Source: Flammulina velutipes (lineage: Eukaryota > Basidiomycota > Agaricomycetes > Agaricales > Physalacriaceae). Taken from it: 64,000 nucleotides of DNA. Each line of letters opens with the position of its first letter. Within the stretch, counting starts at the first letter, position 1. This document shows, in pieces, positions 27,066-52,167 of this stretch. The stretch covers positions 2,852,001-2,916,000 of the forward strand of contig CM022372.1 in assembly GCA_011800155.1 (NCBI GenBank), in the 5' to 3' direction. The translations under genes were made by a program, and so were the position numbers. The notes below the pieces were generated by a model. That model did not search any database, was not told the origin of the DNA, and worked only from the letters and a program-made list of their open reading frames with translations.

Positions 27066-28449
27066 ATGTCTACCCAGATCAGGCGCATTACCTTTTTTTG
27101 TATCCTGGCCATCAAAGTGCCGGGATATGCACTGTAGTGCGTCCCCTCCCAGCCATTATGTGCCAGTGACTGATCCCCTTCAAAGTCCCACCACAGAGCT
27201 ATCCACTCCTCAGTCTCTTTCATCAAGGTTTGCACGACGCCGTATACCACTCACAACACAAAAGGTGGAACTCAACGGGACAAGTTACACTGTCGACCCT
27301 CTCGAGGATCAAGGCTATTATTCCGATTCCTTCAAGATCATTGATGGCTTTGAAGTCAACAATAAGCGTGTACCCGCAATTTTGAAGCGGGTGTCAGAGA
27401 AAAAGACAAAGTTTCCCAACTTTGGCGCGCGCGAGGAAATCGGGTACTTGAAAAGGGTGAGCCAGCTAGCTCTTGGGGAATTATTCAGCGAGCGTACTCA
27501 TCGTTTCAAGGACTCGGTCAATCTGCATTTATTCTCCCAACCGAGCAACGAAAACCCCGGCAAAGTTGATATCGTCGTAAGAGACATTGGCGAAGAAGAT
27601 CCACCATTCAAACCTTTCTACAAATGGTACCTGGAAGACGAAACCATAGCTGCATACGATGGTCTATACGACGCGAGAAAGAACGTCGAAGACAGGTTAA
27701 TCTGGTATGCCAAAGAGGAAAATTTGCTGTATGTTTCGACTTTGCAGACAGACAATTTTTTGCTCATCGATTTCCCGAAGGTATCGAGATTGTCATGCTG
27801 GAAATATATTCATTCGGAAAGAAGCCATGTTAGACTCGAATTGGCCCAGGAGACAGATTGATAGCAGTGTGATTGTTATGCCCATAGATTGGGGTCCCCC
27901 AAGTACTTTTACGGGTATCCAGGATATACAAAACGAGGCCAACAAAGAGAAGCTTATCGAGGAGTTTGAGAAGTTCGTACAAAAAATATTGCGAAGTAAA
28001 CATTTCAATGTCGAGGCACTGTATAATGCACTGCGGCGACACGGACATACACTGAGGAAGTACGTCCAAGCCAGTAATCTCCTTCAACATTAAATACTTA
28101 CTTTCTTACAGGGACGATTGGGAAGACATTAAATTTATCGAAGACGACAAGTATTACGATATCCTCCACGTCGAAAACTTCCAGGATGCAAAGACATACA
28201 AGATAGTCGATGGTTTTAAGGGGGAGAGTGCTCTCTTGGACATCATCGACATAGACACCGAGGAAGAAGCACTTGAAAGGATAGAGGAATACAAAAAGGT
28301 GTGAAGTTTTGAACTGCCTATTGAGTCATAGATTGACGTTGCTCAACTGTCAGAACCTACCAGTGCTGGCGACGCAGTTTTCATTGAAGTATGGCAAAGC
28401 GGACATATTTTACAAAGATGAACGCAAGAAGCCAGGTCCCCAAGGCTGA
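27066..28449 (+). CDS. K1: secreted kinase-like paralogue, full length
   Basis: First member of the family array. ATG 27066 opens a hydrophobic leader (MSTQIRRITFFCILAIK), followed by an intron. The N-lobe-like part has DQGYYSDSFKI (glycine-loop-like), VPAILKRVSE (lysine) and REEIGYLKR (glutamate). The middle reads DIVVRDIGEEDPPFKPFYKW. After an intron the catalytic-loop-like YRDCHAGNIFIRK and then VMPIDWGPPS follow. The C-terminal module has KTYKIVDGFKGESALLDIID. The last exon, reached by a GTGTGA...GTCAG intron, encodes ADIFYKDERKKPG. All putative catalytic residues are kept, so it could be active. The family is not one I can name; a secreted or lumenal phosphotransferase-like fold is inferred. 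Confidence 0.7.
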
Positions 28450-28665
28450 AAGTGGTATTCACAGTGGGAGGGGCGGGTATTTCACTACATATTTATTTTG
28501 TTCGAACGCTTTGCGAAAATATTAAAGCTCTCTATTGAGATTGAACGGTGTGGCGCGCGCGATCCCGGCAAATGCCATATGTCGGCAGGCTCATGCCGAA
28601 CAATTACTGAGCGTCGATGTAGGTTTCCCTTTCACCATCACCAACTCCTCGAGTTAACCTGTTCA

Positions 28666-31600
28666 ATGGCCAAGGATGACGCAAAGCCGCGCAGAAAGCC
28701 AGGTCGTGTGTACGCCTCAGTCTTTCGTTCTGCAGCAGCTGCTAAACGACTGCCAGGCCAACCTCCTGCGCAGAATGTCGTCGATTGAAGCTTCGCTGCG
28801 ACAAGAATGTACGCCGAATTACTCCTGTGCCAGTGAAAGTGAAGTGAACGCAGTGTATAGGTGCCATGTGAGAAATGCGTATCGAGAGGTTGTGGAGCCA
28901 TATGTCCCGAAGGTGCGTGTTCACGATGCAATGCAGCAACCACTGACTCTCTCTCAGGATCGTTGACTACAGGAAAGGGAAGCCGGTGAGAATATACGTC
29001 TTTCAGTAAGAAACTGCGCTAAACAGAGTCCAGACTTGTTCTGGCCAACACTGAGCAACTTCACGACCGTATCGACGATTTATGCTCTCGAATACGCGAA
29101 CTCGAGACGGCGCTCAAGGTTCTCCAGGCTACCGTATCACCAGAACCCCATCCACTTCTTCGCGCCGATCTCCTCCAGATCAAGTCTCCAGAGTCTGTGT
29201 TTAGCGGGCGCCAGAAACAACAGCCCAACGGTTTTGCCAATGGTCATGCTGAAAAATGCCCCGCGAGCACACAACACATTGCGCCCGTCGAGGAGGAGAA
29301 CTTTATTGATGCCTTCGGCACGCTCACAATCGGAACTCAAGGCGAGACCAACTTTCTGGGCAAGACAGCCCGTTCAGAGGCAAGTACGCTTGTTCTCCGG
29401 GGCCATTCTGTTCTTGACATGGTCGTAGTATCTTATCAGAGTCCTATCCAAACCTCAACTGAACTCCGACCTCGCTCTGCCTCGCCTTTCAAGAAAAATA
29501 CTCAATTCGTATTGTCCCGAAAGAGAAGAGCACGACCAGAGTCTTGGCAGCGAAGTGTTTGAACTTCGACCTCCACTTTCCGAAGCTATACGACTTTGCG
29601 AGTTGTATCTGGACCATGGACGATATCTGTAAGCAACATTCGCTTGGTAATTGGTTGTCGCTGAATCATCCCAAAGATATCACGCCATTCCAAGACAGCA
29701 ACTGTTCGACGAGGTTCTAATGTCTGTCTACCGTGCCGAGTGAGTACGACTCCAGTACTATAATTCTGTCTGACGTCCCATATAGTGCCTACAACGCCCT
29801 CGCCCCGTTATGTTATTACAAGCTTTCCCTTCTCTTCAGTATCTTCTCGCTTGGTGCACTCTTCGACCCCGGCAATTATGCTTACTCTGTCGAGTCTCGC
29901 GAATACTCCTACCTAGCCAAGGCCGCGTTTGGACCATTCTCGACTATGAATCGGAATGCAACGCTTGAGGGGATGCAAGCGATGATTCACATGTTTCGGT
30001 ACGCCGAGCTCAGCGATTGGGAGGCTCTGGGCAGCAATGGAAATTGGATCTATCTAGGAGCTGCGATTAGAATTGGCCAGAGCGTGAGCTTCTGTCTTGT
30101 ACCTTTCTGTAAAGTACTAACGAACCCATAGATTGGTTTGCGTATGGGTCTCCCGAATACATCCCAGGATGCTACTGATTTATTTTGAAGATTTAAACCC
30201 CGCTCGTTGGAATCTCAGTAACGATCTAACTCAGCGCCGTAGTTTAGTATTCTGGCAATTATTCACGGCGGACGCCTGGCTGGTAAGTCAAGTTCTGGTT
30301 CATATTATCGTTGGCTCTGATTTCAGTGTACAGAGCTTCGAGTTTGGCCGTCCTCCGATGATATGCCCACAGTTCACTGACTGTCCGCTTCCTGCTGACC
30401 CCGAACCGACGATAGACAGTAACGGAGCGAAGCTGCCCGGCTGTACGTGTTGCAACTCTGATCGGTGCGACTGAACTTACTATCGTTCCTAGTCCATTCA
30501 TGGATATGGCAGTACACGACACTGATGCACACCGTAATGACCACTGCCTTTGGATCCAAGAACCCGCAGTACAATGTGATACTGGAGATGGATCGTAAAA
30601 TCCGCGACTTTCCCGTTCCTCTCAAATTCCAGCTATGCGGCCCAGGCGCAGCAACGGCAGACCCGGTACATTACATGCAACGGTGGTCGGTACTGATGTA
30701 TAAAGAAACTGGTATGTATTTCTTTGACAATCCAGTGTTCGCGATAAACAATGATTTTGTTAGTCCTGCTCCATCTACATCGGGCGTACTTTGCGCAGGC
30801 ATTACAGGAACAACCAGAGGATCTGACACGGCATCGATATCTTCCTTCGGTAATGGCTGCATATCGTTCGGCATGGCGGATGATCCAGGGCTTGAGGATG
30901 GTGAGGGTAAATGCACCTATGATCAGCGAGCGAGTTAGTATGTGTTGGTCGCATGCACTAACCGGGGCTGTGAGTTGTCTTTTTATCGGGTGTGAACGTA
31001 TACTGACTAGTTGTAGATTGCCATGTGTATTCTGGTGACTCGCGCGCCGACCTCGAAGATGGCCAAGCCGTCTTTATCTGAATTAGACACGGTAGCTACT
31101 TTGTTCGAAGAAGCTGCTGCGACTTGCAAGTCAGCTGGTACAATGGTTGTAAGTCTTGTCCCATAGGTTCTCCCTACTCTGGTTGACTAACGGGGTTGCA
31201 AGGATATGATCAAGACCCTCCAAAGGAAAGCCCACGACGCCGTCGAGCAGCAGGAAACCCAGGATTCATCGCTATCTCCGGCAGAGCTTGATCGCCTAGG
31301 TGGCAAGACGCATCTTCTTGCGTCTGACTCTGCACCGTCGTCGCCTGAGATTCAGCAAGGATCGACATCATCGTCGTCGACCACTGGCTCGTCACCCAGC
31401 CAACAACAGCCAAGTCCGAGTCCAAATTCACCATCGTACATCCATCCAACGATCACTGCGGACATGCGCCTGCTGGACAACAATGCGATGGACGTCGACT
31501 TCGGGGCGATTATGTCGCGGGACATGTTTGATCTCCCGGCGACTGACTTTATGTTTGAGGGGTTGGGCTTGCCGGGAATGGATATGGGACAAAATTCAAG

Positions 31601-31718
31601 TTTGGGAGTGGGGCTTGAAGGATATTCGTTTGGGAATGGGGGAGTCTCGGCGGGCATGCCAGTGACGCCGTTGTTGGATGCGACGTGGCAGAGTTTTGTG
31701 GAGCAACTGGGTTTTTGA
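28666..31718 (+). CDS. Zn2Cys6 fungal transcription factor
   Basis: Gene for a Gal4-type zinc cluster regulator. ATG 28666 begins MAKDDAKPRRKPGRV. After splicing, the zinc cluster reads TSCAECRRLKLRCDKN then VPCEKCVSRGCGAICPEG, with all six cysteines. A linker (SLTTGKGSR) and a dimerisation coiled coil (LVLANTEQLHDRIDDLCSRI, RELETALKVLQATV) follow. The middle region is the fungal-specific transcription factor homology domain, spread over many exons, and the C-terminus is Ser/Gln/Pro-rich and Gly/Met-rich like an activation domain, ending at 31718. It acts in the nucleus on CGG-type sites. It sits inside the K array, directly after K1, so it is a candidate regulator of that cluster, though position is the only evidence. 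Confidence 0.88.
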
Positions 31719-31791
31719 GGATTGGAACTGAGTCCTGGTGTTATTGTATTGAACTCTAATGTATTCAGCAGCCTGTGACATTTCTATGTAT

Positions 31792-32299
31792 CTATATTAA
31801 CAGCGTTAAACGGTTCATTGGCCAGAGTTCTGATAAGGAATTTGCAGGTACCCAGTCGTTGCGCCACACGTCAGTGTACTCTGAAAGGGATATAGCTCGA
31901 TCCTCGATAAAGGGAATGCGTCCTGGATTCATGAGAGAAAGAACTTCAGCCTCTGGGAGACTAAGTATCTGCTCCCTCCCCTCCAAGACTATCTTGTCAG
32001 CACAGGTCAGCGCGGTGAGTGACATAATCGCCTCCTGCGGTGTCAAGGCTAAATGGACATCTTTTTCCTTAGACTTTCAGATCGTACCAGAAACCGAAAG
32101 GTCTTCGGATAACCTCCTGTTCTCTATCCAAAGCCAAGGAGGCTGGGCATCTCATCGTCGTTGGTGGCGCACAAGACTGATGGAGCAGACTAGTCCTTCT
32201 CGCTTTACCGAAATACGCATACTTAGTGGAATAGAATTTTCTCTTATGTTTGCTGCTGAGCGACCAACCTTTATTTGGGTTCTTACTAGTAACCATGGG
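31792..32299 (-). CDS. Possible two-exon uncharacterised gene
   Basis: A minus-strand pair of frames joins across a short intron near 32050-32071 (GTCTAAGG...CCGCAG), giving FGFWYDLK then EAIMSLTALTCADKIVLEG and LMNPGRIPFIEDRAISLSEY, ending at 31792. The composition looks coding, but the 5' part (from about ATG 32299) is basic and less convincing, and a plus-strand open frame of 177 codons overlaps it. No family is recognised. Confidence 0.3.
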
Positions 32300-32606
32300 C
32301 GCGTATAGGATTCACCAGGTCCTTCGTTCAAGGACGCAACAAGACTAGCGTAAGATGTAACTACATTTTAGCGGCTTGTCCTGAAATAGAAATGATATCC
32401 TCTGAAAGCACTGTCGACAGTCCGAAGACTGAGGCCATGACACAAAGTCTAATCAGTTGGCAGTTCAATAGACGCGCCACAATGGTTCACCCCGTGTAAT
32501 ACGGTGCTCCTGACAGTGGGCTAGCACAGGCAGCGTATCTCAATGCTCGCGTTTAAATACTAGGCCACATAGACATAGACTCCATACCGAGCTGGTCTCA
32601 AACCCA

Positions 32607-33613
32607 ATGGTTCCCTCTTCATTTTTCTTTTTCGTGCTCCTTTTCTTCAACCCGGGAGCATATTCGCAGTAAGTTAAAGGCTCGGTTAGGGAGACTCTTG
32701 AGCCTGATTTCTTTCTTCCAAAGCCCTACACACAGCTCACTTTCCAGGCGAGAGCAATTCGAGCTGTTGAAGTCCGTCGAAATACAGGGGACAGAGTACA
32801 CACTCAACCCCCTTCCACTTGCCGATCAAGGCAGCTTCTCTGATGCCTACCAGATACTGGAGCCATTCATGGATACTTACGCCATATTGAAAGTTGTTCG
32901 AGAGACCGATAAGACCGCACTAGAAGTGGCGTATTTGAAAAAGGTTGGCATTTCCATCCTTATGACAGTCAGTGTTAGATGTGACAACACGATAGATTGA
33001 CCTACTGTTGCATGCAGAAGCCAGTAAAACAGTCGCTGGGGCATACTATATTGTCGTTGTCGATGTAGAGAGCCAGGACCCGCCGTACAAGCCGTTTTTC
33101 AGGTGGTACCTTGAGGATACCGAGATGGATTTAAAGGCGGCATTACTCAACATGCGGAGAGCTGCAGGAAATGAATTATTCTCTATCGCAAGGAAAAAAG
33201 GACTACTGTGTGTCTGCTAAGTTCATACTGGCGATTTTATCCTCACTGACGCATTCTGAAAGTTACTACGACTTCCACATGGGCAATGTGTTTGTAACCA
33301 AGGGGTTTGAGCATGCCGCGCCCATAGACTGGGGCCCACCGATGAAAAAATTCAAAAAGGCTGGCGTCATAGAAATCAAAGAAGAACAGGGAACGGAGGA
33401 ATATAAAGCCAAGCTCGAAAAGTTTCAAAACAAGCTCAAGGCAGAAATTCGAGTGGCATTTAGTATCAAGGAATTGGATACGGAACTCAGAATGCGTGGC
33501 AAGGAATTGAGGCCGTGAGTTCAACCTTTTTGACACCCTGCCATCACTGAGCTTTGACGTTGATTAGAAAAGACGTCGCTTTGCTTAAGGAGGAGGAGTC
33601 CGGACAAGCGTAG
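32607..33613 (+). CDS. K2: secreted kinase-like paralogue, short form
   Basis: ATG 32607 begins a strong signal peptide (MVPSSFFFFVLLFFNPGAYS), then an intron with GTAAGT donor. The N-lobe-like part has DQGSFSDAYQI, YAILKVVRE and LEVAYLKK. The middle block is IVVVDVESQDPPYKPFFRWY. After an intron the catalytic-loop-like YYDFHMGNVFV and APIDWGPP follow. The helical end reaches MRGKELRP, where other members splice into a C-terminal module. Here a last intron (GTGAGT...GATTAG) leads only to KDVALLKEEESGQA and a stop at 33613. K2 is therefore the core domain alone. Active-site-like residues are intact. Confidence 0.65.
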
Positions 33614-33873
33614 AGCATATGTTGCGCATTAATGTTAACGAGAGCAGCTCAGCTATAGATATGACCAAATTGAAAGGTTTATTTAAGCCGCTCAACCGTG
33701 GGAATAAATCAGTGCTGCCATCATTTGCTTGTCCAAGTTGACGTTCGTCTACATACGACTTCAAGACGCCGCCGGATTCGTGACGCCACTCCACGCGACC
33801 GAGGAGCAGCTGGAGGTATAAGAATGGCGCGTCTTCCTCGATCCCCCTTGCTTCCCTTTTCCCTTCTCCCACC

Positions 33874-35801: not shown

Positions 35802-37133
35802 TCAGGCAGTGTAGATGAAGCTGTATGTCTGGACTTTCTTATCACTTTCCACCTTCTCGCCTTCTATGTATCGTCGCGCCTAACGCGGAGTCAGATTTCA
35901 GATATGTCTTCACACTTATCCAAAGCAGCTCACCTCTTTCAATTCCCGGATTCGCTTCAATATGGGAGTAGGATCGCCGCCGGCTCGGAGTTCCATAACT
36001 TGCAATCTGACATCCACGCCGCGTAGGCCACCAACGATCTGATAGATACCTGCTCTGCTCGTGGCCACGATCTTGTAGTGTCTGAGATTGAGTTCATAGA
36101 AGGATTCCACGTCAGGAATGTCCTCCCTGGAGCATGCAAATCAGCTTAGCCCACATTTACAGTTAGCAACATACCGCCTCAAGTCCTTCCCAGCCTTCAG
36201 GAGAAGGTATCTCAGCCTATAAACGCTCATTTCATACACAATTTCGGTCTTCATCCTGTCTTGGTACTCTGTCAGGTAACCTTTTTCGGCTTCTCTCATA
36301 TCCACGACACCGCTGAACTCGTCAGTTTGTGGACCCCAGTCTATGGGCATGGCATCCGAGAACTTCGCGTTGAAGAATATGTTCTTCATGTGATAGTCCT
36401 CGTAGCTGTATGGCGTGAGTTAGCATGCAAAGAAGGTGAATGGAACAGCTCACGCCATGAGGAATGGGGCAGTCGTAGCGTATCCATTCAATTGCCCGTA
36501 GAGTGTCTTTAGCGCAGCAGCCATCATCGTCTTTGCTTTCAGACTGGGGTTCTCGAGGTACCATTCATAAAGGAGCTTGTACAACGCATCTCCTTTCTTT
36601 GGATAATCCTTTCGGACGTTCCTCATGACGACGTAGTAGTACTTTGCCTTGTCAGTTTCGGAGTGCATATGGAGTCCGATCTTATGATAAGATTATGAGC
36701 GTTCGGGCCTTGCTATTGAGGAAAAGCGCTTACTTTCTTCAGGTAACCGACTTCTTTGTTTGTCTTGGACAAGACATCCTTACCGCCCTTCGCCATGTTG
36801 ACGTCCTTGAGGATAGCAGCATATCCGTTGAAGCCGTCGACGATATTATAGGTTTCAGAGAACATTCCCTGGTCCGAGGTGGAAAGGGCGTTGACTTTGT
36901 ATTTGGTGCGTGCAGTTAGCACGACCGATTTCATCTGGCCCTTCGTCGGGGCCCTCGCGAATCTTGCACTCGACACGTCGGCACGTACAACAGCAGTCTC
37001 ATTCTTAAAAGCAATGGGTCTATTTAGCGTCAGTTTCCACGCAATGAGCAATAATGATCACATACATTGCTGTCGTGAAGAACACTTCATGGAAGATGAC
37101 GAGGGCAAAGAGGACGGATATGTTTGGATTCAT
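35802..37133 (-). CDS. K3: secreted kinase-like paralogue, full length
   Basis: ATG 37133 opens a signal peptide (MNPNISVLFALVIFHEVFFT) with an intron straight after it. The N-lobe-like part has DQGMFSETYNIVDGF, YAAILKDVN and NKEVGYLKK. The middle block differs from the K1 type: YYVVMRNVRKDYPKKGD, then LYEWYLENPSL, the same variant as K4. The catalytic-loop-like region is YEDYHMKNIFF with AMPIDWGPQ. The C-terminal module follows an intron at LRR and carries YQIVGGLRGVDVRLQVMEL. The last exon encodes KVQTYSFIYTA and stops at 35802-35804. K3 and K4 form a subgroup inside the array. Confidence 0.68.
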
Positions 37134-38030: not shown

Positions 38031-39342
38031 TCAACCTGGAGCTCCGTAAACTATGCTATATGTCTTCATTTTCGTTCCCTTGTCTACTTTGTATCCCGAG
38101 AAAAGATACAGTTTCTCCTGTATGAAGGTCAGCTTCATTCCACAAAGTTACTCATCCACCCACTTTCTGTAATCTTCGAATCTCTTTCTCGGGATCTTGG
38201 GTACCGTCATCTCTCACGTACTTCAGCATAGCGATCTTCACAGAACCGAACCCGCCGAGGATCTTGTAGGTGTTCGGCCTATCAACTATAGGAACAACTT
38301 GGTAAGATATATGTCCCAACTTGACATAGGCTTCCACGTCCGCCTCATCGGCCCTGTTATGAAGGTCAGTGGCAATGCATTACGCTCTTTTGGTATCCGC
38401 ACTCACGGTCTCAGCTGTTTCCCATAGTCTTTTAGATAGGCTTTTAGACCCACCACGCTGATATAAGCTACGAGCTCGGTTTTCAAGAACTTGAGATATC
38501 CATCAACTGTCGCTTTCCCTTCAGCACTGTTCAAGTTGACTTCCTCGACGCCGTCGATTTTTTCAGTTGCTGGACCCCAATCTATGGCCATGACCTTTGT
38601 AAACGTCTTGTCATATAAAACATTGCCGAGATGAATGTCACGATAGCTAATCGAGTGATCAGTGAAGCTACGGTGAGCAAGATAATGAAGACGCACATTA
38701 GTCCTCGACTATTGGCGATGTCAGTAAAGAAGCGCGTGCTACTCTTGCGCGCCGTCGCGACAGCGTCCTTTGCCTTCAAAGTCTTATCTTCCATGTACCA
38801 CTCCTGAAGGTACTTGAAAATTTCGTCTCCTTTCTTCGGATAATCCTTGCGGACATTTCTCATGACGAGGTAATACTTCTTCTTGTCCGTCTCGGAATGC
38901 AGAAGTAGCCCAACCTAGGTGAACATCATCATGATCAGTCTCGAGTGTTTGTTTCGTTCGCACTGCGCCTACCTTTGTCAGAAAGCGAATCTCTCTCTCT
39001 GTCTTGGCTACAATATTTGGATCCTTATTGTTCACTAGATCGATGACTTTTAAGATGGCAGCAACCCCGCTGAAGCTGTCCATCCTATAGGTATCGGAAA
39101 AAGAGCCTTGGTCCGCGGAAGAGAGGGGCGTGACTTTGTATTCCGTAGACGTGGTGAGCTCGATCTCCGTTTTGGGGGCCCTCGCTACATTGTCTGCACG
39201 TACAGAAATGGTCGAGTTGGAAAAGAGACTGCCAATGATTAGTAAACGTCACGACAAGGACGAGGAGGGCATACGACGCATTAGTGAGTAAAGACCCATG
39301 AAGCACCAAGAGGAAGAAGACAAAGGTGTTGTTGAAGTACAT
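38031..39342 (-). CDS. K4: secreted kinase-like paralogue, full length
   Basis: ATG 39342 starts MYFNNTFVFFLLVLHGSLLT, a signal peptide, followed by an intron with GTATGC donor. The N-lobe-like part has DQGSFSDTYRM, AAILKVIDL and REIRFLTK. The middle block is YYLVMRNVRKDYPKKGD with QEWYMEDKTL. The catalytic-loop-like YRDIHLGNVLY and VMAIDWGPA are intact. The C-terminal module has NTYKILGGFGSVKIAMLKYV. The frame could stop in KVGG at 38152, but splicing at GTGGGT to the acceptor ACAG gives a last exon (MKTYSIVYGAPG) that matches K3's, so the stop at 38031 is preferred. Confidence 0.68.
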
Positions 39343-40158: not shown

Positions 40159-41709
40159 CTATGTCTGCTCTGTTTTGTATGCATTGCTGCCACCAGCGTA
40201 TTCCACGCTTTTCCATTCCACCCATTCCTTCATCTTCTCCCGCTTATTCCTGCGAGTATCTCTGTAGACTATGTATACTTTGTTTTCTTCTTCGTCGTCT
40301 TCTACATACAACAATAGTCCATTCTGACGGTCACCGAATATCAGTTTGTATAGCTCGCCTATCAATGCAACTCCGCACCTCTCGTAGACTCGTTATTTCT
40401 TCATCACTTTCCGGGCCGATCGTAGAAATAGTCAGTAGAGCACTCTTCCCTAGAAAGCCATGATATTTCTTGATTGCTTTCATGTCCCCGTCGTGTACCA
40501 CGCCATCGACTACCTTGTAAATGTATGCCACGTTGCCATCTTCATCTTGCTCTGTGATTTTGATCTGGAGATGTCGACAATACACGCTCTGAGAATTCTC
40601 TTCGTCGTAGTGGGTCATCCAAAAATAATCTTGTCTGGAGTGATCATATTAGGTTCTTAAGCATGATCATACTTGACTTCTACACACCTCCTCAGGTCAT
40701 CGCCATTTGCCCATAATTGGTATGCTAGTTTTTCGACAGTGAATTGATCCTTCAAATTCGGGTGCAGATCCTCTGAGTAATCCTGAATGTACATTGCGGA
40801 GTTAGTCGCATTGGCAACATCTATGACACCGGTGTATTTTTCTTCTGGTCCCCAGTCCACTGGCATCACAGTGCCTTCCATAGCGATACCTTCACGCTTC
40901 GCCTCCGCCGTTTCTAAGAGGGCTGTCTTCCGAAAGAAAATATTTCTCATGGTATAATCTCTATACCTTTAAGGTTGGAATTAGTGAGCAAATCACGGTG
41001 AGCACTGGTAGGACTGAAGACTTACAGTAGTTCTTCTTCGTTGGCATACCAAAGTAATAGGTTCTTGGTATTAGCACGCGCGTGGTCCAGGGCATCATCT
41101 GCAGTAATACTGGGATCCTCCTTGTACCATATGTGTATTGGCTTGAAGGGTGGATCAGCCTCTCCAAGATCTTTGACGACAATATCGACATCGTAGAGAC
41201 CATCTTTATCCGTGGAAGAGCTCCACTTATGTAATAGATACAAGTCAACCGATTTCTAGAGATCATGAGAATCAGCGCTTTTCGGGCTAGAGACGGCTCA
41301 CCCTCTTCAAAAAGCCAATTTCCCAATATGTCTTGGAATGCAGCTCGTCCTCTTCGGAGATTGGATCTGACACCTGTTTCAATATGGCGGGAACCTCCCT
41401 CCCTTGATATTTAAAGGCCGGCTCAAGCTTGTAAGAGTAGGAGTAATGGCCTTGTTCATTGAGGGGCACGGCGGTGTACTTGTTCCCTCCAAGCTCGACT
41501 GTTTGCTTTTGGAGTGACCTGGATGCAGGCTGGGGACTAGCTTGTCTTGTTAAGAGAGAAAAGGGTACTGATATGATAGAAGTGATGGGTCTATGATGAC
41601 AAGATAAGTCAAAACATAGTAAGCAGGGAAGGCCGTACAATGCATAACACGCAGCTACTTGAACAAAGAGAAGGCAGAAAAGGGTAACATGCCTGGAGTT
41701 AGGAGGCAT
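40159..41709 (-). CDS. K5: secreted kinase-like paralogue, long tail
   Basis: ATG 41709 begins MPPNSRHVTLFCLLFVQVAA, a signal peptide. The N-lobe-like part has EQGHYSYSYKLEPAF, VPAILKQVSD and YWEIGFLKR. The middle block is DIVVKDLGEADPPFKPIHIW. The catalytic-loop-like region is YRDYTMRNIFFRK, so the Asp and Asn stay but the usual His is Thr, then VMPVDWGPEE. The C-terminal module is longer and more diverged (IYKVVDGVVHDGDMKAIKKY). The final exon encodes NGLLLYVEDDEEENKVYIVY and continues for about 34 more residues than in its relatives to a stop at 40159. Confidence 0.66.
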
Positions 41710-42723: not shown

Positions 42724-44091
42724 CTAGCGAACATCTTTATAGATGATGCATACTTCCTTAGGATCCAGTCTACTGTCCAGCAGTAGTCCTTGCTGATGGT
42801 TCAATCAGTTCACGTAGTATCTCATCGTCGACAAAGCACCGTACCTGCTTATAACCCTGTATTGCACTCATTCCCTCGCTTGGTGATTCTATCTTGGCGA
42901 ATTTCAAGAGAGCAGGCTCCCCATCAAAGCCACCTAGTATCTTGTAAGTGTTTGCGCGCTCATGTGGCGTCCACTTGATATGGACCATGAAGATGCGCTT
43001 TCCGGCGAACGTGGTCCGATCGACATCATCACTGGAAAGGAATATTAGAAAGGCATGAGGCTCAGTTACTTGACACACACCTTCTCAGCTGATGGCCGTA
43101 TCTTCGTAGCTCGTAATGCAATGCCTCGACACTGAAGGTGTCTACCAGTTTCTCGCGCAAGCGTGTGGCGTAACTCTGAATTTCCTCTGACTTATTGGCC
43201 TTATCCGCAATATCCATGACACCCGCATAATAATCCGGTGGGCCCCAATCTACGGGCATAACTCTTACATTGCTATCAATGGCACGCCTCGCTCCCCATT
43301 CCGAAGTGGCTATTTTTCGAAGAAATATGTTCCGTTTATTGGTATCTTGATACCTTTGCCGAATCGGTCAGCAGATCGTGACGAGCGAACTAAAAAACGC
43401 ACAGCAGGTTTTCCTCTTTTGCGTACCAAAGCAACCTGTCTTCGATGTTCTCTCGGACCCTTCGTAGGGCTTCAAATCCGTCCATGGTCTCGTCTTCGAT
43501 GTACCACTTGTAGAACGGCTTGAACGGTGGATCCTCTTCGCCAATGTCTTTAACGACAATATTGACGTCGTACGTGCCTTCCTTGTTCTTCTTGCTACTC
43601 CATTCGTGAAATAGATGCAGATCAATCGAGTCCTTGAAAGGCCGAACGTTCAATTTCCATATTATCCATTCCCTTCCCGAGAGACACTCACCCTCTTCAA
43701 GAATCCGATTTCTTGATGCGTCTTTGAATCCTTGTCACTCTCTGGCTTTACTTCTGACACTCGTTTCAAGACAGCTGGCACGCGCTTATCGCCGACTGGG
43801 AAGCCGCCGGTGATCTTGAAGGAGGCGGAAAAGTAACCTTGGTCCATCGCTGTGATGGGTTCAGCTGTGTACTCTTTTCCATCGAGTATAACCTCTTCAG
43901 ATTTTAGCGCGTCTCGGCGCTGGATGTGTTTCGTTGGAAGAGATCGCGATACGGGTGGCGGCGGTGTGGCGGGGCTGTGGACAAGATCAATCCATTAGAT
44001 GGTGAAGAACAAGCGGAAGGGCGCACAGGGAATAAACATATTCTTGGATAAGGAGGAAGCAGAGAAAGGTGATGTAAGTGTTCACATGCAT
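42724..44091 (-). CDS. K6: secreted kinase-like paralogue, full length
   Basis: The clearest model of the array. ATG 44091 starts a signal peptide (MHVNTYITFLCFLLIQEYVY); intron 1 is 43975-44026. Exon 2 encodes PATPPPPVSRSLPTKHIQRR, a Pro-rich start with a dibasic site that a Kex2-type protease could cut. The N-lobe-like part has DQGYFSASFKITGGF, VPAVLKRVSE and HQEIGFLKR. Next are IVVKDIGEEDPPFKPFYKW, the catalytic-loop-like YQDTNKRNIFLRK and VMPVDWGPPD. The C-terminal module has NTYKILGGFDGEPALLKFAK. A 52 bp intron (GTACGG...CCATCAG) leads to the last exon QGLLLDSRLDPKEVCIIYKD and the stop at 42724-42726. Confidence 0.7.
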
Positions 44092-44245: not shown

Positions 44246-44292
44246 TCATCGCCAGTGGCTGCGCCACAATCGACATAAGTAACCACAATTAA
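44246..44292 (-). promoter_or_regulatory. Promoter block upstream of K6 (diverged copy)
   Basis: A 47 bp segment about 155 bp upstream of ATG 44091 aligns to the blocks before K7 and K8. It keeps ATCGCCAGTGGCTGCGCCACA but has lost the CACGTG core. Common descent of the upstream regions is clear for part of it only. Confidence 0.4.
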
Positions 44293-44867
44293 TTTGATTT
44301 ACATCCCGAATGATCGATTAGTAATCTATATTGTAGATTTCAGATACCGCATTCCACAACTCTGACTATTTGGACGGTTTCGATTTGTCACATTTGGTCA
44401 ATCAGTACCGACTAAGAAAAGGCAAACTCCCGAGCTACTGGCTTACAAGGTGTGGAGATACTATTCTGTATTCCGTTTAACCATCACGACAAGACGCTCT
44501 ATATTATCCAGGGCGCTGAGTGCTGGATACCCGAAGTGTCAAGCTGTCTTTGCGTGCTGTGTCCGAAGATACTATAACGGCAACGGTACATCTGCTCTAT
44601 CTACCAATTGATCCGCTTCCTAGTACTGAATCCATCCATAATTGTCATTTTCTCAACCCATGGCTACGTGCGAGTTTTAAACATACAAAGTGTTCATTGA
44701 TATATTGGGCGACCACGTCGCCAGAAACCCGCCTGCTATTACATTTCGGGGACTTCCCAATTGCGCCCCCGATGATCGGGGTAGATAAAACATGCTTCAC
44801 TGGTGCTCAATTTGCTGCCCAGCACTGTCGTCAATCTCTGGTGGTGAACATTTTAGTATAGAGATAT

Positions 44868-46148
44868 CTAAGCCTTGGTGACTGTATTACGAACCTGTGC
44901 AGCAAATTCTTGTAACACCCGCTCCCCCTCACTTTGCGTATCTATCTGGACACATCTCATGTGAGCAGGATTCCCATTGAACCCGCCAACTATCGTGTAA
45001 GTGTTCCGAGTATGATTTTTGTCCTGTAGTGACTCCTTGATATGTACAAGATCGTACGTCTTGCCGTCGAGCTCTTCCTGTCTGATGTCATCTCTGAAAA
45101 AGGTTTGATTATCCCAAGGACGGATGCGAGTGAAATGCACCTTCTCAGCTCATGACCGTTTTTCTTTAAATCGTTGTATAATTTCTCGACAGAAAATTCG
45201 AATTCCAGCTTGATGCGCAAATCCGCATCGTACTGCCGGAAAATGTTCGCCTTCCTATTTATCTTCAATGTCCTCGACACCGTTAGGACGGCCCTGATTT
45301 GGAGTCCAGTTTACTGGCATGACTCGTACACTGCTATCGTCGACACCTTGTTCCCGAATGGCCGCCTTTTTAAGCAATATGTTCCGTCGATTGATTTCGT
45401 GATAACTGCTCGCATTCAAGAATCAATGAGCATAGGCGAGGATCTGAACCTTGGAAACGCACACTAGGTATTCCTCTTTCGCATACCAGAGCAACCTGGT
45501 CGCAATGTTCTCTCGTGCTGCACGCAGGCCTTCAAGTGCACTGATAGTCTTGTCTTCAAGGTACCACATGTAGAATGTTTTGAATGGTGGGTCGTCTTCT
45601 TCGACGTCTCTCATGACGATACTCACAGCGTAGTTGCCGTCCTTATCCTTCCTCTTAGTCCATTGATGAAACAAATACAGGCCAACCGAGTCCTTGAAAA
45701 GATGAGTATCATCGCCTGTTAAGTACGTTCCAAAGCTAACTCGCCCTTTGCAAAAACTCAATCTCCTCGTGCGTTCTGGAATCTTCAGTTTCTGGTTTCC
45801 TCTCTGGGATTCGTTTCAAGATCGCGGGAACGCGCTTATTACCAAGTTGAAAGCCATCGGTGATCTTGTATGAGCCGGGAAAACGTCTTGGGTCCATCCA
45901 GTGTTCGAGGGGTACAGCGAAGTACTTTGTCCCGTTGAGTCTAACCCATTCGGTTTCAGGTGGTTCACGACGCTGGGCATGACTCGCTGAAAGAGACAAG
46001 GGGGCGGATGGCGGCGGTGTAGCAGGACTGTAAGCAGGCTTAGGTGCTAGACGATAGCAATCTAATAAAGGGAATCATACCGTGCATAGATGGACTCTTG
46101 AAAGAGTAGGAAACATAATAAGGCAACGTACCAAGTGTTAGCAAACAT
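44868..46148 (-). pseudogene. K7: decayed kinase-like paralogue (frameshift, broken active site)
   Basis: ATG 46148 and the signal peptide (MFANTWYVALLCFLLFQESI) are intact, as are PATPPPSAPLSL, VPAILKRIPE and HEEIEFLQR. But the glycine-loop-like motif is DPRRFPGSYKI instead of the usual QG form, the catalytic-loop-like motif is YHEINRRNILL (Asp to Glu), and the DWG motif has become VMPVNWTPN. After GVEDIEDK the frame meets TAG, while the matching helix (KANIFRQYDADLRIKLEFEF) continues in another frame: a one-base-type frameshift near 45260-45270. The C-terminal module (NTYTIVGGFNGNPAHMRCVQ) is still readable, but no last exon is found. It is a pseudogene, or at best a dead kinase-like protein. 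Confidence 0.7.
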
Positions 46149-46270
46149 ATTGTGGTATGGCCTTCAGCTATGGCCTTTTTGCGGTCTTTATAGCGAAATC
46201 CTGGAATGGTACGGACGCTGCAACAAAGAATCGCCATGGGTATGAGGAGTCGTATCCGTGTTGTCGTTGA

Positions 46271-46317
46271 TCATCGCTAGCATCTGCGCCACACGTGACT
46301 AAGGTTACTTGGTTAGC
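46271..46317 (-). promoter_or_regulatory. Promoter block with CACGTG upstream of K7
   Basis: About 120-170 bp upstream of ATG 46148. It contains TGCGCCACACGTG (CACGTG at 46292-46297) and AAGGTTAC, and is nearly the same as the block upstream of K8. CACGTG is the classic binding core of bHLH factors. The role as a binding site is inferred from conservation and position. Confidence 0.5.
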
Positions 46318-47320
46318 ACTGCCGACCAAGTAGGATATCAAAAAACTCACAGGACAATGATTTCGTCGCGCGTGTAGAGAAACGTATGCACCCTGCTTCC
46401 TTCACACTGAGCATCGAATCAATGAATGCAAAGCGACGGGTTGATATACGCGACATATCAGCACAAATCCTCAAAGAAAGCCAACGAAAGACAATGTTAT
46501 TGTACTTTGCTCATGTGTGCTGTGCGGCGAGAGACGACGATAGGGCGATACCCAGATGACAGCTATGTTTCTCAAATATCTGACATTGAATCAGCGTGCT
46601 AAGTACAGGACACAGAAATAGAGATCTTCGCTTCGGCGTTTCTATTTCAAGCAAGACGCGCCCCACGGATAGCTGGAGGGAGGACATCTCTGTAGATTAG
46701 CCTCGTGGGCGTCGCCGGGGAGTCGACGTGAGCACTAAAGTCTACTTCGCTACCATCCAGCCGTCGATCCATGTTACTAGAAATGCAATAAAGCATCCAA
46801 GCAACAGTCGGGTCCCGTGGCATGCGACATCGATAGACGTTGAAGAGGGAGCGGGTCTAGGGCTCGTATATTGCCATATGCGACTGGGATGGGCTTAGGG
46901 TCTTCTGTAGGTCGTCCAGTTCGTGGGGGTCGACCGGAAGATACCTGAAGGGAGCAAGCCACTATGAACGGTGGACAGATGTATCTGTTGAGGAGCGCGG
47001 AGGGACGGCGGAGCTGGACGGGGAGTGAGATTTTGGCACAAAAACGCTATAAGAGGCTGCTAGACGGCTCCGGCGAGGTGGCATTCAAGCCTAATGAGTA
47101 TCAGCATATGGCCAAAGTATGAAAGGCAAGGGAGAGCTATCCTCCAAGGTGGCAAGTTCAAAGGTTACGTGGACGTCAGCAAAGCAGATCGTCAAAAATT
47201 GGAATACAGTAGACCAGAATATAACAGTGGTTGGGTGAGATGGTGGTCGGAGGCAAGATTTGATGGCACTACCCTTGGCTTTACACTGTCACCATCATGG
47301 CAACTGGCCAATCCATACAC

Positions 47321-47990
47321 TCAACTTCGAGTTTGGTTCGCATTCAAGTTAATCGCATAATACGGAGCGCAGTAATATAACTGTAGCGAACTTGTGAATG
47401 GAGTACGCCATTCCTGCCAGTGGTATGTGCATGGTCCCAATGCTTTCCATTCGCTGACTCCCTCCTGGCCCTCCATCTCCTTTCGCCGTCTCAATTCCTT
47501 TCGTATCTCAACCGCTTCAACGACTCCACTGTAATCCCAATCACTGAAAGACGGCAAGCCGAGCAAGGTCAACGACTCCTCATTCGCAAGATTCACCTGT
47601 ACCGCGCTGTGTCCATGCAATTCCAAGACAAAGGGGAACGACGATATAACTGTCTGGTACGTTACACTACGCCATTCATCTCACTCGCTAACCTTCACGA
47701 ATAGCACACACTACCATGACTGGAAACTGGTTCGCAGAGACGATGAAAAGATCTGCCTATATCTGGTTCTCTTCGCCTTCCAAGCAGTCAACTCTATACA
47801 ACCTAATTTTGCCTCAAGCACCTGGAACGATAGCCACCACTCATCTGCCCTAACCAGACGTCCATGGCGCAACTCCTCCCACTTGTACGCCGCGTCCCAT
47901 CCGCTTCCATCCCATCATCTCTGAACATGACTCTTGTAGAATTGGTGCATCTTCGCGCAGGAGCCAAACATTACCGTTGACGAATCCGAG
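47321..47990 (-). CDS. Uncharacterised gene fragment with HGHS...DWDYSG motif
   Basis: Two exons are readable. The upstream one has AAYKWEELRHGRLVRADEWW and LGCIELTAWKAKRTRYRQIF. A 48 bp intron (GTAGTG...GGCGTAG) joins it to VTYQTVISSFPFVLELHGHS, then VQVNLANEESLTLLGLPSFS, DWDYSGVVEAVEIRKELRR and a stop at 47321. The order HGHS, a downstream Asn, then DWDYSG resembles the catalytic loop and DWx motif of aminoglycoside-phosphotransferase-like folds, but the first Asp is not where it should be. The 5' end was not found. It could be a relic or an unrelated unknown gene. Confidence 0.35.
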
Positions 47991-48064
47991 GTGTGTACCA
48001 TGATTCTACTTCATCCTAGCCCCTCCTCACGTAAGGACTATCTTGCAGGAATCACAGGTCGTAT

Positions 48065-48739
48065 ATGCAAAGCCCGCAAAGGCACACGCACATTTCAGGC
48101 GGCTCGTTGGCACTGCTACTTGTCGAAGCGCGTCAACCACTATCTCTGACGTTGACATATACTCCTCGCGACCTTGCGAACATCAACATCCAGGATCACA
48201 CATTTAGCGGATACGTGACGGACCAGTGCCATGGACGCTTCTGCGAATCTAGCCAGGAATATAGCAGTACATTCAATCAATCGTTCACTCGTCCAAGGGT
48301 GTTCATCGATCTATCATCTACGTCAAAGAGACGTGCCGTATCTCAGTGTCCAATCCATATCAAAATGAGTCGCACATCTCCAGGGCTGCTCTCCTTCGAT
48401 GACCAAGAAGCGATTGAATACACCCACCAAGCCCTAAGCCCAAAGGTATTGGTGCGTTCGTTCTTTGAACTATATTACACTTGGACTGAGAGCGCGTTGA
48501 ATAGGCAAGGAAAACATTCGAAACAGCACTCAGGTGTAAGGGACAGATATGCCTCCAGGAACCTTCGGACTCGGGATGACCACGCTTCGGAGACTAGCAA
48601 CTTTCCTATCTGGCTTGAACGTCTGTACCAAAGCCCCGTCAGATTTGTGGTGAACCTCGCTCGACCCTCCGTACGAGACCAGCTCGTACGTAGTTATTTC
48701 TCTATTCTTCCAAAGTTCTTACTCTATTTCAAGTTATAG
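48065..48739 (+). CDS. Hypothetical open reading frame, 224 codons
   Basis: An uninterrupted frame from ATG 48065. The protein starts MQSPQRHTHISGGSLALLLV and has no recognised domain; the later part is basic (NRQGKHSKQHSGVRDRYASR). No splice sites or homology support it. Length alone makes it worth listing. Confidence 0.25.
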   Translation: MQSPQRHTHISGGSLALLLVEARQPLSLTLTYTPRDLANINIQDHTFSGYVTDQCHGRFCESSQEYSSTFNQSFTRPRVFIDLSSTSKRRAVSQCPIHIKMSRTSPGLLSFDDQEAIEYTHQALSPKVLVRSFFELYYTWTESALNRQGKHSKQHSGVRDRYASRNLRTRDDHASETSNFPIWLERLYQSPVRFVVNLARPSVRDQLVRSYFSILPKFLLYFKL

Positions 48740-48881
48740 AAGCATACTCGTATTAGCCTGCGCGCGCTTATAATTAAGTATTCACTAGAATCTCGGTCGA
48801 TTATCCAAGTAGACGATGCACGCTTCGTCGGGTTTTAATCTATACTCCAGCAGTAGCCCTTGCTGATGGTTCACATTTCAG

Positions 48882-50152
48882 TCAATATACGAGCCGGTCC
48901 TGACTGTGGAAGCCCCTCATCTGATCGATCTTCTCTATCGCGTCTTCCCCTTCAATTTCTTTGTCTATCGTAACGAAGCTCATGAGAGCAGGCCTCCTCT
49001 CAAATCCACCCAGTATCTTGTAAGTCTCCGTGCGGTCCTGAGGCGACGCTTTGATAGGTATAACGTCGTAAGTCTTGCCCTCGAACTCTTCCTGAGTGAC
49101 ATCACCTCTGAAATGAAGATATTAGTAGAGATCTGGGTATGCTTGCTAGCTTGAGCCACACCTTCTGAGCTCACGATTACGTTTCTGTAGCTCTTCGTAC
49201 AATGTCTCGACATTGAAAGTCCTTTCGAGTCTTTCGTGTATGGTGGTCAGGTACTTTCGAAGAATCTCCGACTTATTAGCTGAACCCGCAATGTCTACGA
49301 CACCCGCGTAATGGCCATCTGGTGGCGCCCAGTCTATGGGCATGACTCGCACACTACTATCAATCTCGCGCTTCATTCCCCATTCCGACATGGCCGTTTT
49401 TCGAAGAAATATGTTTAGCGGTTGAACATCGGCACAATTGGTGAGCCGAATTGTGACTGGAGGAGGATTGGAAACGCACAGCAGGTTCTTCTCTTTTCCA
49501 TACCACAGTAACCTGCTCCTGATGTTCTCTCGCGCGTTGTGTAGGCCCTCAACCGCACTCATGTTCTCGTCTTCGATGTACCATTCGTGGAACAGTTTGA
49601 AGGGCGTATCGAGTTTTCCAATGTCTCTAACGACAATACTAACATCGTAGCTCTCGTTCTTAATTGTCGTCTTACTCCACTCATGATATAGATACAGATC
49701 AACCGAGTCCTTACCAGTGAAGAAGTAAGCATTTATCTGTTCCACAGGACCAGACTGACTACTCACCCTCTTCAGATACTCTATTTCCTTTCGCGTCTTC
49801 GAATCTTCGCCTTCTGCTTTCTTCTCCGATACTTGTTTCAAGATTGCGGGAACGTGGTTGTCGCCAACTTGGAATCCGCCAGTGATTGAGTAGGATTTGG
49901 AAAAAGAGCCTTGTTCCGGCGGTGGGAGAGGCACAGCAGTATATTCCTTTTTGTTGAGTGTAAATTGCTTGGGGTCGAGGCGACGATTCAGCGACCCAGA
50001 GACGGACGATCCGAGCTGCGGTGTGGCGGGACTTGAAATGGGATCAATTGCTAGATGCTAACAAATTATCGGTAAGGGACATACATTGCATATACTGAAT
50101 TTTGAACAACTAAGAGCCATAATAGGTACATGTACCAAGTGTTGGTAGGCAT
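48882..50152 (-). CDS. K8: kinase-like paralogue with damaged splice sites
   Basis: ATG 50152 begins MPTNTWYMYLLWLLVVQNSV, a signal peptide, then an intron with GTATGT. The N-lobe-like part has EQGSFSKSYSITGGF, VPAILKQVSE and RKEIEYLKR. The middle is SIVVRDIGKLDTPFKLFHEW. At the intron before the catalytic loop no usable acceptor remains; reading through gives CADVQPLNIFLRK, which still keeps Asp and Asn in register, then VMPIDWAPP (DWG to DWA). The C-terminal module has ETYKILGGFERRPALMSFVT. The last-intron donor, GT in K6, is AT here, so the frame runs to a stop at 48882. The old last exon (QGLLLEYRLKPDEACIVYLD) is still present down to 48785. Function is doubtful. Confidence 0.6.
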
Positions 50153-50283
50153 GCTTTTAGTACGGGGCTCAGTGATGTCCATGTCATCTTTATAGTCGTA
50201 TTACTTCATTATTTAGTCTTTGGGCGATAATGGAAGCCTGTACATCACCCAGATATCGACAACCGCTCCTGAGCTGCCGTCGA

Positions 50284-50330
50284 CCATCACTAGCAGCTGC
50301 GCCACACGTGTCCAAGGTTACACGGTTAAC
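50284..50330 (-). promoter_or_regulatory. Promoter block with CACGTG upstream of K8
   Basis: About 130-180 bp upstream of ATG 50152. CTGCGCCACACGTG (CACGTG at 50305-50310) and AAGGTTACNNGGTTA match the K7 block at about 39 of 47 positions, although K7 and K8 lie 4 kb apart. Confidence 0.5.
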
Positions 50331-50786
50331 ATCCCGAGCAAACAGGCTGTCAATCGAACGAGCTCACACTGGGTAAATTTCGTCGTCTACCAGTGTGTAT
50401 AACGTAGCGATGAACATTCAATTTTCCCTCTCGGATTCCCCGGAGAATTGCACTGTACAGCAGGCCGGGAGCCTGGTTTGCTTTTTGATCTTTCAACGTT
50501 TCAACAACTACAAGCCATCGAATCGGTGCGTGCACAAGTAGCAATTTGATTTTCCTCTCCGAGGGATACCTAAGGGTGGGAAAAGTCAAGTACCGCATTC
50601 TCTTGGTCACTCGTGCTGAGACAGATCAACGCCACAATAGAAATTGATCAGCCACCACCTCCGTGCCCCAGAGCCATATTATAAATACTATATCTTTCAT
50701 TGACCTAATGTAGTTTGCTACTGAGGTGATTCTCCCATTGCAATGACTGAAGCGTCCATCGCCAAATCGGGTTGAAGTACCGGCTG

Positions 50787-52167
50787 TTATCGAGGTCGGG
50801 TATCTTCATAGAACATCTGTAGCTTATTGTATTCCATTTCGTAGTCCAGGATGTTCTTCATCTGAAATTTTGGCCATCTCAGTATATTGAACCAACTGTG
50901 TGAAACACCGCACCTCTAGATCTCGAGAACGACGGATTTGTTGAAGACCTGCTTCTCTTGAGTGTATTCGAACAATGTCCAGTAGAGCCCGTTTCCCCTG
51001 GAAACGTCCCACAACCTTGTAAGTCGTCCTGATTTCCCCAGTTCTGGTCTGAAGAAGTTTGTAATACTGGCCCTTGAACAGCATCGGGAGGAAATCCTCG
51101 CTGACATGAAGTTAAGGGTTGAATATTTGAATAAGCAAGAACATGTTTGATTTCAACATACCTTCTCATTCTATAACCATGTCTTGTTAGTTCACGTGCC
51201 AGCTCCTCAACATTAAAGGTCTTGTCCAGTTCACTGTATAGTTTATCAACAAACATCTTGGTCATTGCAAGTCTTGTGTCCTTGTTTGCTATTTCTGCGA
51301 GGTCGATAACACCTGCGTAGCGCCCAGGTGGCCCCCAGTCTATGGGCATGACGTTTTTTATAGCATCATCGTTTTCATCTAAAACAGCCCTTTTCCGAAG
51401 GAAAATGTTTCGCACGTTGAAATCCTCATACCTGATCGGGATTGAGCGAGTTACAGTGAGCAAATCTGAAGACGCACAGGAGACCTTCCTCTTCGGCATA
51501 CCATTTCAGCCTTTCATAGATATTCCTTCGTGCGTTACGAAGGCCACTGATCGCACGAACAGTTTCGTCTTCAAGGTACCATTTGTAGAATGGTTGGAAT
51601 GGTGGATTGACTTTCCCGATGTCTTTGACGACAATATCAATCGTGTAGGAATCTTCATCTTTATGCCTCCATTGAGAGAACAAATATAGGTTGACCGACT
51701 TCTTGAAGCTGCTGTAAGCACCATCTCATCTGCTTCAAGGACTCGGAGCTGGCTCACCATTTTCAAAAACTCAATCTCCTCACGCGTCTTAGAGTATCCA
51801 TTCCCCAAATCTACCTCCGACACACGTTTCAAGATCGCTGGCACACGCCGCGCTGTATTGTTAACTTGAAAGCCACCAACGATATTGAAAGCCTCAGAGT
51901 AATGGCCTTGAGCTATCAGCGCGACAGGTACAACCTTGTACTTGCGTCCGCCGAGATCAACCCATTCAGTGTGGCGGTTTCTACGGTGGGTGTTCCTCGA
52001 TGAAAGAGACTGAGAGATGGCAGGGGACAGTGTGGCGGGTCTACGAGCAGGATCAGTCACGGGACACATCATGTACATAGTTGATATGCGTACGATGCAT
52101 CTAGTACAACCGCGTAAATGAGCAGGACATGGAAGAAGGTAAGGCGCCAAATGTTAGCAGACATCAT
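50787..52167 (-). CDS. K9: secreted kinase-like paralogue, full length
   Basis: ATG 52167 (or 52164) begins MMSANIWRLTFFHVLLIYA, a signal peptide. The N-lobe-like part has AQGHYSEAFNIVGGF, VPAILKRVSE and REEIEFLKM. The middle block is DIVVKDIGKVNPPFQPFYKW with LEDETV. The catalytic-loop-like region is YEDFNVRNIFLRK, then VMPIDWGPPG. After an intron at RMRR the C-terminal module reads TTYKVVGRFQGKRALLDIVR. The last exon follows a GTGCGG...TTTCAG intron and encodes MEYNKLQMFYEDTRPR before TAA at 50787-50789. Lysine, glutamate, both Asp and the Asn are all kept, so a working protein is plausible. Confidence 0.68.

Follow-up and report, generated by a model that had tools for sequence, protein, structure and literature searches.

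An array of predicted secreted, compact kinase-like proteins, most with an additional N-lobe, in the mushroom Flammulina velutipes

A 64,000-nucleotide stretch of the Flammulina velutipes genome (contig CM022372.1, here C5, positions 2852001-2916000; hereafter the window) carries nine related genes, K1 to K9, between positions 27066 and 52167. These genes and their relatives elsewhere in the genome probably encode compact protein kinases of the secretory pathway, in which an extra kinase lobe or a whole extra kinase domain, fused into the same chain, acts as a regulator in cis. An original prediction, made from the letters of this DNA, had proposed a nine-member array of kinase-like genes in 25 kb, and the array is borne out, with eight spliced models and one broken copy, K7. 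GT-AG introns of 46-61 bases were placed by eye with three-frame reading, and all eight models, which are predicted from the sequence, are open (Table 1). Five introns in phases 2, 0, 2, 2 and 0 are shared by K1, K3, K4, K5, K6 and K9, and K2 has four introns in phases 2, 0, 2 and 2. K8 has three introns, since the sequence of intron 3 stays open in frame immediately ahead of the catalytic loop and the fifth could not be placed. In K7, the conserved splice site is gone, an in-frame stop is met and the remainder lies in another frame, with several motifs retained. An open copy at about 2.939 Mb of C5 (L028, 1472-2729), which by eye is very like K7, carries the same Asp-to-Glu and NWT changes, and the degenerate state of K7 is therefore probably older than its break.

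The motifs of the array were previously read as the glycine loop, catalytic Lys, alpha-C Glu, catalytic loop and DWG of kinases, and in the present alignments they do fall in register with CK2-alpha. The claim that all nine paralogues share this order was right as to the order itself, and too broad in that K7 has lost QG, the catalytic Asp and DWG, and K8 reads DWA. The GxGxxG loop is absent, and xQGxxS stands in its place; its QG is found in eight of the nine window genes (as AQG in K9; K7 is the exception). AILK or AVLK, the alpha-C Glu and the catalytic-loop Asn are present in all nine, the catalytic Asp in eight (Glu in K7) and DWG in seven (NWT in K7). The Lys-Glu-Asp-Asn-Asp set (K-E-D-N-D) is complete in 8/9 genes, with K7 reading K-E-E-N-N. 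A profile of 13 members, taken from the 64 aligned copies introduced below, was compared with the PDB, and its best match was CK2-alpha (E 2.6e-5), in which Lys, Glu, Asp, Asn and DWG are all in register, CK2-alpha itself having DWG. The best 60 of the 184 matches were all protein kinases. This profile-profile check had been proposed together with the original prediction, and it returned protein kinases and no named non-kinase family among those 60, which argues for the divergent kinase that had been suspected.

The C-lobe is very short. In the eight models, 55-62 residues run from DW to the domain end, with two predicted helices, and no APE motif was found in the more diverse family alignment (A6). 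The matched CK2 chains, 326-340 residues long, reach DWG at about residue 172 and continue for about 150 residues or more, and on this comparison the family is a shortened kinase. Curated domain profiles hardly recognize it. When K1, K2, K4 and K6 were scanned with the protein kinase profile PF00069, only K4 matched (E 3.3e-4, 20.6 bits against a cut-off of 31.7), and among the 13 members a single match reached 22.2 bits, again below 31.7. The aminoglycoside phosphotransferase profile APH (PF01636) weakly matched K4 (17.2 and 18.3 bits) and K2 (13.4 bits; cut-off 23.2) and 4/13 members (best E 2.6e-4), while the OspG profile (PF22303) matched one of the 13 (E 0.046, 14.2 against 27 bits). Among the members scanned, no Pfam or NCBIfam match was seen above its curated cut-off, bit scores being unavailable for three of the four APH matches. 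The Pfam scan of the 13 members, whose filters drop most matches above E about 0.1, listed 11 families at E <= 1, none matching more than four members, and the best NCBIfam match had an E of only 0.021. The suggestion of a possibly undescribed family has survived the tests that were run.

The kinase assignment has its limits. The marks of a canonical eukaryotic protein kinase are missing, namely a score above the Pfam cut-off, the APE motif with helices F to I, and the GxGxxG loop. Moreover, the structure models are poor, with a mean predicted local distance difference test score (pLDDT) of 55.6 and 45.6; the N-lobe was matched and the C-lobe was not resolved. Structure comparison, the other check proposed with the original prediction, has accordingly borne out the N-lobe half only. 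In a structural comparison (VIA), the N-lobe of both models was placed on kinase N-lobes; for model 1, 48 of the 50 listed matches were protein kinases, the two others being one APH and one lanthipeptide synthetase, and for the second model, all 50 listed matches were protein kinases. The top Foldseek match, ROP18 (E 6e-3), is too weak to weigh, and in both the VIA and Foldseek listings families absent from the listed matches are not thereby excluded. Since the second model, built from the better alignment, scored lower than the first, weight is placed on the profile-to-PDB search and not on the models. Taken at the level of sequence, a protein-kinase-like assignment is supported by the beta-3 Lys, the alpha-C Glu, the catalytic Asp and Asn, the DW Asp and the homology found in the PDB.

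The family extends far beyond the window. In the genome of 38.1 Mb in 23 contigs, exon-level searches at E <= 0.001 gave 100 matches with a piece of K8 and 83 with a piece of K1, on contigs C4-C10 and C12, corresponding by eye to roughly 75-80 family places genome-wide, of which nine are in the window. A spliced profile aligner, run on 40 genome stretches, recovered 66 further domain copies outside the window, two of them with an internal stop. Scores were 354-772 on the eight window models, partly by construction as the profile was made from them, and 110-505 on the 66 outside copies, which had no part in the profile. Controls scored at most 27.6 (12 shuffles) and 29.4 (six parts of the window that hold no K gene, both strands read); the outside copies stand far above both maxima, and chance motifs were rejected as an explanation. 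The ratio of nonsynonymous to synonymous substitution (dN/dS) was below 1 in all 22 closest pairs computed, ranging from 0.15 to 0.75 with a median of 0.40, and on these values the copies are read as coding genes under constraint, though not tightly so.

The relationships of 66 domains (eight window models and 58 of the 66 outside copies, the two with stops and six short ones being dropped) were reconstructed as an unrooted IQ-TREE phylogeny. K1, K5, K6, K8 and K9 fall in a group of 24 (support 100/99), K3 and K4 in a group of five (100/99) and K2 in a group of seven (96/96), and each of these three groups mixes window genes with copies from other places. A single tandem expansion within the window was consequently rejected; the array gathers three branches of the family. 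From 5.8 billion proteins, 7997 candidates were scored with the eight-model alignment (A1), none of them reaching E <= 0.001, and A6 found one protein at E <= 0.01, P0001, of 165 amino acids on a 1094-base public ENA contig. P0001 is a gene caller's reading of K4 exon 2 with its flanking introns, in which the exon is nearly unchanged and the leader and introns are changed; by comparison of the two sequences, it would be K4 of the same or a near species.

Conservation across the family was assessed in 64 aligned copies, comprising the eight window models and 56 of the 66 outside copies (two with stops and eight short ones dropped), with a median pairwise identity of 0.32. The beta-3 Lys is kept in 59/62, the Glu in 62/63, the catalytic Asp in 51/64, the Asn in 59/63 and the DW Asp in 56/64. 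The family also has marks of its own, such as the EWYxED motif (W in 58/64 and Y in 63/64), the G (62/63) and V (58/63) that follow DWG, and the L (62/63) and R (61/63) of the domain end. Outside the window, all five catalytic residues are retained in 45 of the 62 copies with all five positions aligned, a count biased toward conserved copies because resemblance to K1 and K8 was how the outside ones were detected. Complete sets are found in 38/48 copies of the single-domain or K-type (kinase plus second N-lobe) form and, in two-domain genes, in one of seven first domains and six of seven second domains. A group of five copies in the tree, all from C9 at 294-385 kb (L044, 1937-5640; L045, 1443-5190; L048, 1835-2892), has lost the DWG Asp and kept the Trp (as FW, VW or YW), constituting a pseudokinase sub-cluster, and the nearby L046 and L047 keep the full catalytic set.

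Past the first domain and its intron 4 (phase 2), seven of the window genes (K1, K3-K6, K8 and K9) continue into a segment that resembles a second N-lobe, such as YKILGGF...ALLKF...VCIIYKDV in K6; no such tail was found in K2. A hidden Markov model built solely from 53 first N-lobes outside the window recognized these tails with E values, for a search of eight sequences, of 1.9e-10 (K4), 6.2e-9 (K6), 7.8e-9 (K8), 2.7e-8 (K5), 2.9e-6 (K1) and 1.2e-5 (K9), each of the six outscoring the best of its 278-299 reported shuffles. The K3 tail was not significant (E 0.058, below the best shuffle); it is aligned in A1 and has the same intron phases. In K1, K3, K4, K5, K6 and K9 the intron pattern repeats, with a phase-2 intron before and a phase-0 intron inside each N-lobe, and in K4 and K6 the phase-0 intron of the second lobe lies at the matching profile position. 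The second N-lobe is best read as an intragenic duplicate of the kinase exons. Its beta-3 Lys is retained in the window only by K4 and K6, and most second lobes should therefore be without kinase-like ATP binding. Among the 66 outside copies, 17 align well into the second lobe and ten more reach its start.

The family also has two-domain members. Seven genes (L010, two in L034, two in L035, L042 and L043) are open through two kinase domains, with a phase-2 intron at profile position 284 linking the two in 7/7. Within the domains, a phase-0 intron at position 117-122 occurs in all seven first and six of the seven second domains, and a phase-2 intron at position 193 in six of the seven first domains (one has an intron at 201 in phase 1) and in all seven second domains; several of these alignments begin late or end early. 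Each two-domain gene has one complete domain and another with at least one catalytic residue lost, the degenerate domain being the first in six genes and the second in L010. Because the K-type tail is joined on in the same way as the second domain of these genes, its simplest reading is a kinase domain that has lost its C-lobe or is at an early stage of acquiring one; loss and gain are not told apart by the tree.

A signal-peptide start had been claimed for every paralogue, and indeed the first exon of all nine window genes reads as a hydrophobic, signal-like leader, of 20-25 residues in the eight models, so that the claim stands as a prediction. The residues at the exon junction (GYA, AYS, TTA, TNA, CYA, VYS, VYA and LDA) fit the -3/-1 rule for signal peptidase, an RR pair ahead of the domain in five of the eight models is a possible Kex2 site, and no further strongly hydrophobic stretch was found in the eight models. 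Genome-wide, a crude test, which asked for a Met upstream (in frame or across a single intron) and a hydrophobic core, detected a leader at 57 of 70 domain starts (61 outside and nine in the window, five outside copies without an aligned N-lobe start being omitted), compared with 10% of 300 random positions; with a stricter cut the values were 54/70 and 6%. The 13 misses comprise seven second domains of two-domain genes, K1, L016, L029, and one copy each of L025, L027 and L032, and among them K1, L025 and L029 have a leader by eye. As in the window genes, the leader exon mostly ends in a phase-2 intron. The mature models hold only 0-2 Cys, and extracellular ATP is scarce, both of which speak for a site of action that is lumenal or reached by delivery.

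Taken together, we infer ATP binding, a protein rather than a small-molecule substrate, export and regulation in cis. A cleavable signal peptide would carry each protein into the secretory pathway, where the compact fold would combine a complete N-lobe, bearing the beta-3 Lys and alpha-C Glu, with the catalytic Asp and Asn, the metal-binding DWG and, after DWG, a C-lobe cut to about two helices without the APE motif. ATP would be bound and its phosphate transferred to a protein encountered in the Golgi, at the wall or outside the cell. Pseudokinase domains act as allosteric partners in cis in the JAK kinases, and because the C-lobe here is minimal, the extra half or whole kinase domain might likewise be a built-in allosteric partner. 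In its most specific form, in which these are exported minimal mushroom kinases whose degenerate same-chain domain or N-lobe serves as an allosteric activator in place of the C-lobe machinery, as a counterpart of the ROPK and FIKK families, the proposal would define a previously undescribed class and is less likely than not. Given the expansion, the fast divergence, the broken copy and the degenerate C9 copies, our guess is that the many diverging copies may serve dealings with other organisms or with non-self mycelia, much as the ROPK and FIKK families do for parasites.

Other functions have to be weighed against this. Phosphorylation of small molecules or glycans in the secretory pathway, by APH-, Fam20B- or POMK-like enzymes acting on sugars, antibiotics or wall glycans, would suit the short C-lobe without an APE motif, the weak APH matches of four of the 13 members and the one APH among the 50 structural matches of model 1. 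The Y-x-D-x-H-x-x-N catalytic loop recalls the loops of APH and choline kinases. Nevertheless, CK2 ranks first in the PDB search with no APH in the best 60 of 184 matches, and protein kinases fill nearly all of the listed structural matches for both models, so that small-molecule substrates appear unlikely. The altered glycine loop throughout the family, the second-lobe Lys kept in the window only in K4 and K6, and the C9 group without the DW Asp would fit a kinase fold retained mostly in binding proteins, pseudoenzymes that use the pocket as a scaffold; yet all five catalytic residues persist in most copies inside and outside the window at a median identity of 0.32, which makes this quite unlikely. 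It is very improbable that the family is a divergent offshoot of FunK1 with gained signal peptides. Both are expanded fungal kinase-like families, and FunK1-profile matches lie within tens of kb of K loci (C4, 3.25-3.28 Mb; C7, 2.07-2.20 Mb), but none of the 116 genome matches of PF17667 coincides by coordinates with a K locus, and no FunK1 match was listed for the 13 members at E <= 1. FunK1 identity was rejected on these grounds. That count, for which 107 of 177 candidates were scored, may include other kinases, as the profile also rang in four of 14 control genomes. On C4 and C7 the two families look as if the same variable regions were common to both.

A fourth possibility overlaps with the secretory-pathway kinases favoured here, namely that the proteins are effectors delivered outside the fungus, in the manner of ROPK and FIKK, against competitors, grazers or non-self mycelia. 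Signal-like N-termini, a large family that is both scattered and clustered, fast divergence with dN/dS near 0.4, and broken and degenerate copies are all consistent with it; on the other hand, expansion by itself is no proof of delivery, and we know of neither a target organism nor an uptake route. Together, introns of about 50 bases and the presence of GH7 (three loci), AA9 (about 19 places, counted by eye among 36 matches) and class II peroxidase (one place) mark the fungus as a saprotrophic agaricomycete that rots wood or litter, which counts against this possibility as well. We regard effector delivery as conceivable and somewhat doubtful. The class II peroxidase exon is closest in the PDB to versatile peroxidase and "Peroxidase" chains, which are Pleurotus and Coprinus enzymes.

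Several known systems resemble the family in part. With CK2-alpha and eukaryotic protein kinases it shares the order and register of the glycine-loop position, beta-3 Lys, alpha-C Glu, Asp, Asn and DWG; it differs in its signal-like N-terminus, the xQGxxS loop, Y-x-D for HRD, the 55-62 residues after DW, the lack of APE and the second N-lobe. OspG-type minimal kinases also have a very short C-lobe, and they are bacterial effectors (PF22303). The original prediction could match the family neither to FunK1 nor to FAM20 or VLK, and profile searches agree with it, the FunK1 profile being off all K loci and no FAM20, FAM69 or VLK match being listed by Pfam for the 13 members at E <= 1. Still, Fam20 offers the functional model for the proposed regulation, in that active and inactive copies of a secretory-pathway kinase fold are paired; Fam20A is an allosteric pseudokinase partner of Fam20C in trans and is called the first secreted pseudokinase identified in the review PMC7948968, whereas the K pairing lies within one chain of a fungal protein with few Cys. 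The ROPK family of Toxoplasma, which includes pseudokinases (PMC3682881), and the FIKK family of Plasmodium (PMC12137140) serve as the evolutionary model, being lineage-specific and diverging like the K family, and exported, as is predicted for it; the K family differs in that it belongs to a mushroom, has no known host, is of other sequence and has a compact C-lobe and a second N-lobe. FunK1 (PF17667; PMC3591445 and PMC6001611), the fungal family that would come to a curator's mind first, is an expanded kinase-like family of unestablished function, and its profile is without a match to the K genes. Plant tandem kinase-pseudokinases such as Yr15 (PMC6170490) also place two kinase domains, one of them a pseudokinase, in one chain, but their kinases are unrelated and they are disease-resistance proteins.

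Table 1. Predicted genes of the K array and selected second N-lobes (positions in the window)
Feature	Position	Strand	Description
K1	27066..28449	+	Signal-like exon, compact kinase domain (YRDCHAGN, DWG), second N-lobe; 6 exons, 372 aa
K2	32607..33613	+	Signal-like exon, compact kinase domain (YYDFHMGN, DWG), without second N-lobe; 5 exons, 263 aa
K3	35802..37133	-	Signal-like exon, kinase domain (YEDYHMKN, DWG), divergent tail read as second N-lobe; 360 aa
K4	38031..39342	-	Signal-like exon, kinase domain (YRDIHLGN, DWG), second N-lobe; 352 aa
K5	40159..41709	-	Signal-like exon, kinase domain (YRDYTMRN, DWG), second N-lobe; 429 aa
K6	42724..44091	-	Signal-like exon, kinase domain (YQDTNKRN, DWG), second N-lobe; 368 aa
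K7	about 44740..46150	-	Broken member: glycine-loop QG lost, catalytic Asp to Glu, DWG to NWT, splice site lost, in-frame stop
K8	48882..50152	-	Signal-like exon, kinase domain (CADVQPLN, DWA), second N-lobe; 3' end uncertain
K9	50787..52167	-	Signal-like exon, kinase domain (YEDFNVRN, DWG), second N-lobe; 370 aa
Second N-lobe of K1	28112..28449	+	Exons 5 and 6
Second N-lobe of K4	38031..38353	-	Exons 5 and 6
Second N-lobe of K6	42724..43031	-	Exons 5 and 6

Other features of the window include, between K1 and K2, a candidate multi-exon fungal zinc-cluster transcription factor recognized by eye (28600-31720, plus strand), for which a scan of three open reading frame pieces gave no Pfam match. 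An open reading frame at 425-1669 on the minus strand carries a MYND finger (PF01753, E 1.3e-9), and another at 15941-16495, also on the minus strand, has a sub-threshold match to a prokaryotic STING domain (E 0.031, 14.7 against 27.1 bits) that is probably due to chance.

Among the matches listed from titles and abstract openings of the open-licence literature, none names a secreted mushroom kinase family, and the family may already carry automatic "kinase-like domain" labels in mushroom genomes; new here are its genome-wide size, its short C-lobe, the added N-lobe and the relatives with two domains. Animals are well known for phosphorylation along the secretory pathway, as by Fam20, and apicomplexans for exported kinases. 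In mushrooms, the family suggests a little-known route by which fungi may modify proteins beyond the cytoplasm. With a large family in which most copies are catalytically complete, fungal phosphorylation in the lumen or outside the cell would become directly testable. The single-domain form, the kinase with an added N-lobe, and the pairing of a complete with a degenerate domain would offer a natural series on the origin of pseudokinase regulation. If the proposal is true, this diversified class of mushroom kinases, with dozens of copies, would parallel in fungi the ROPK and FIKK effector families.

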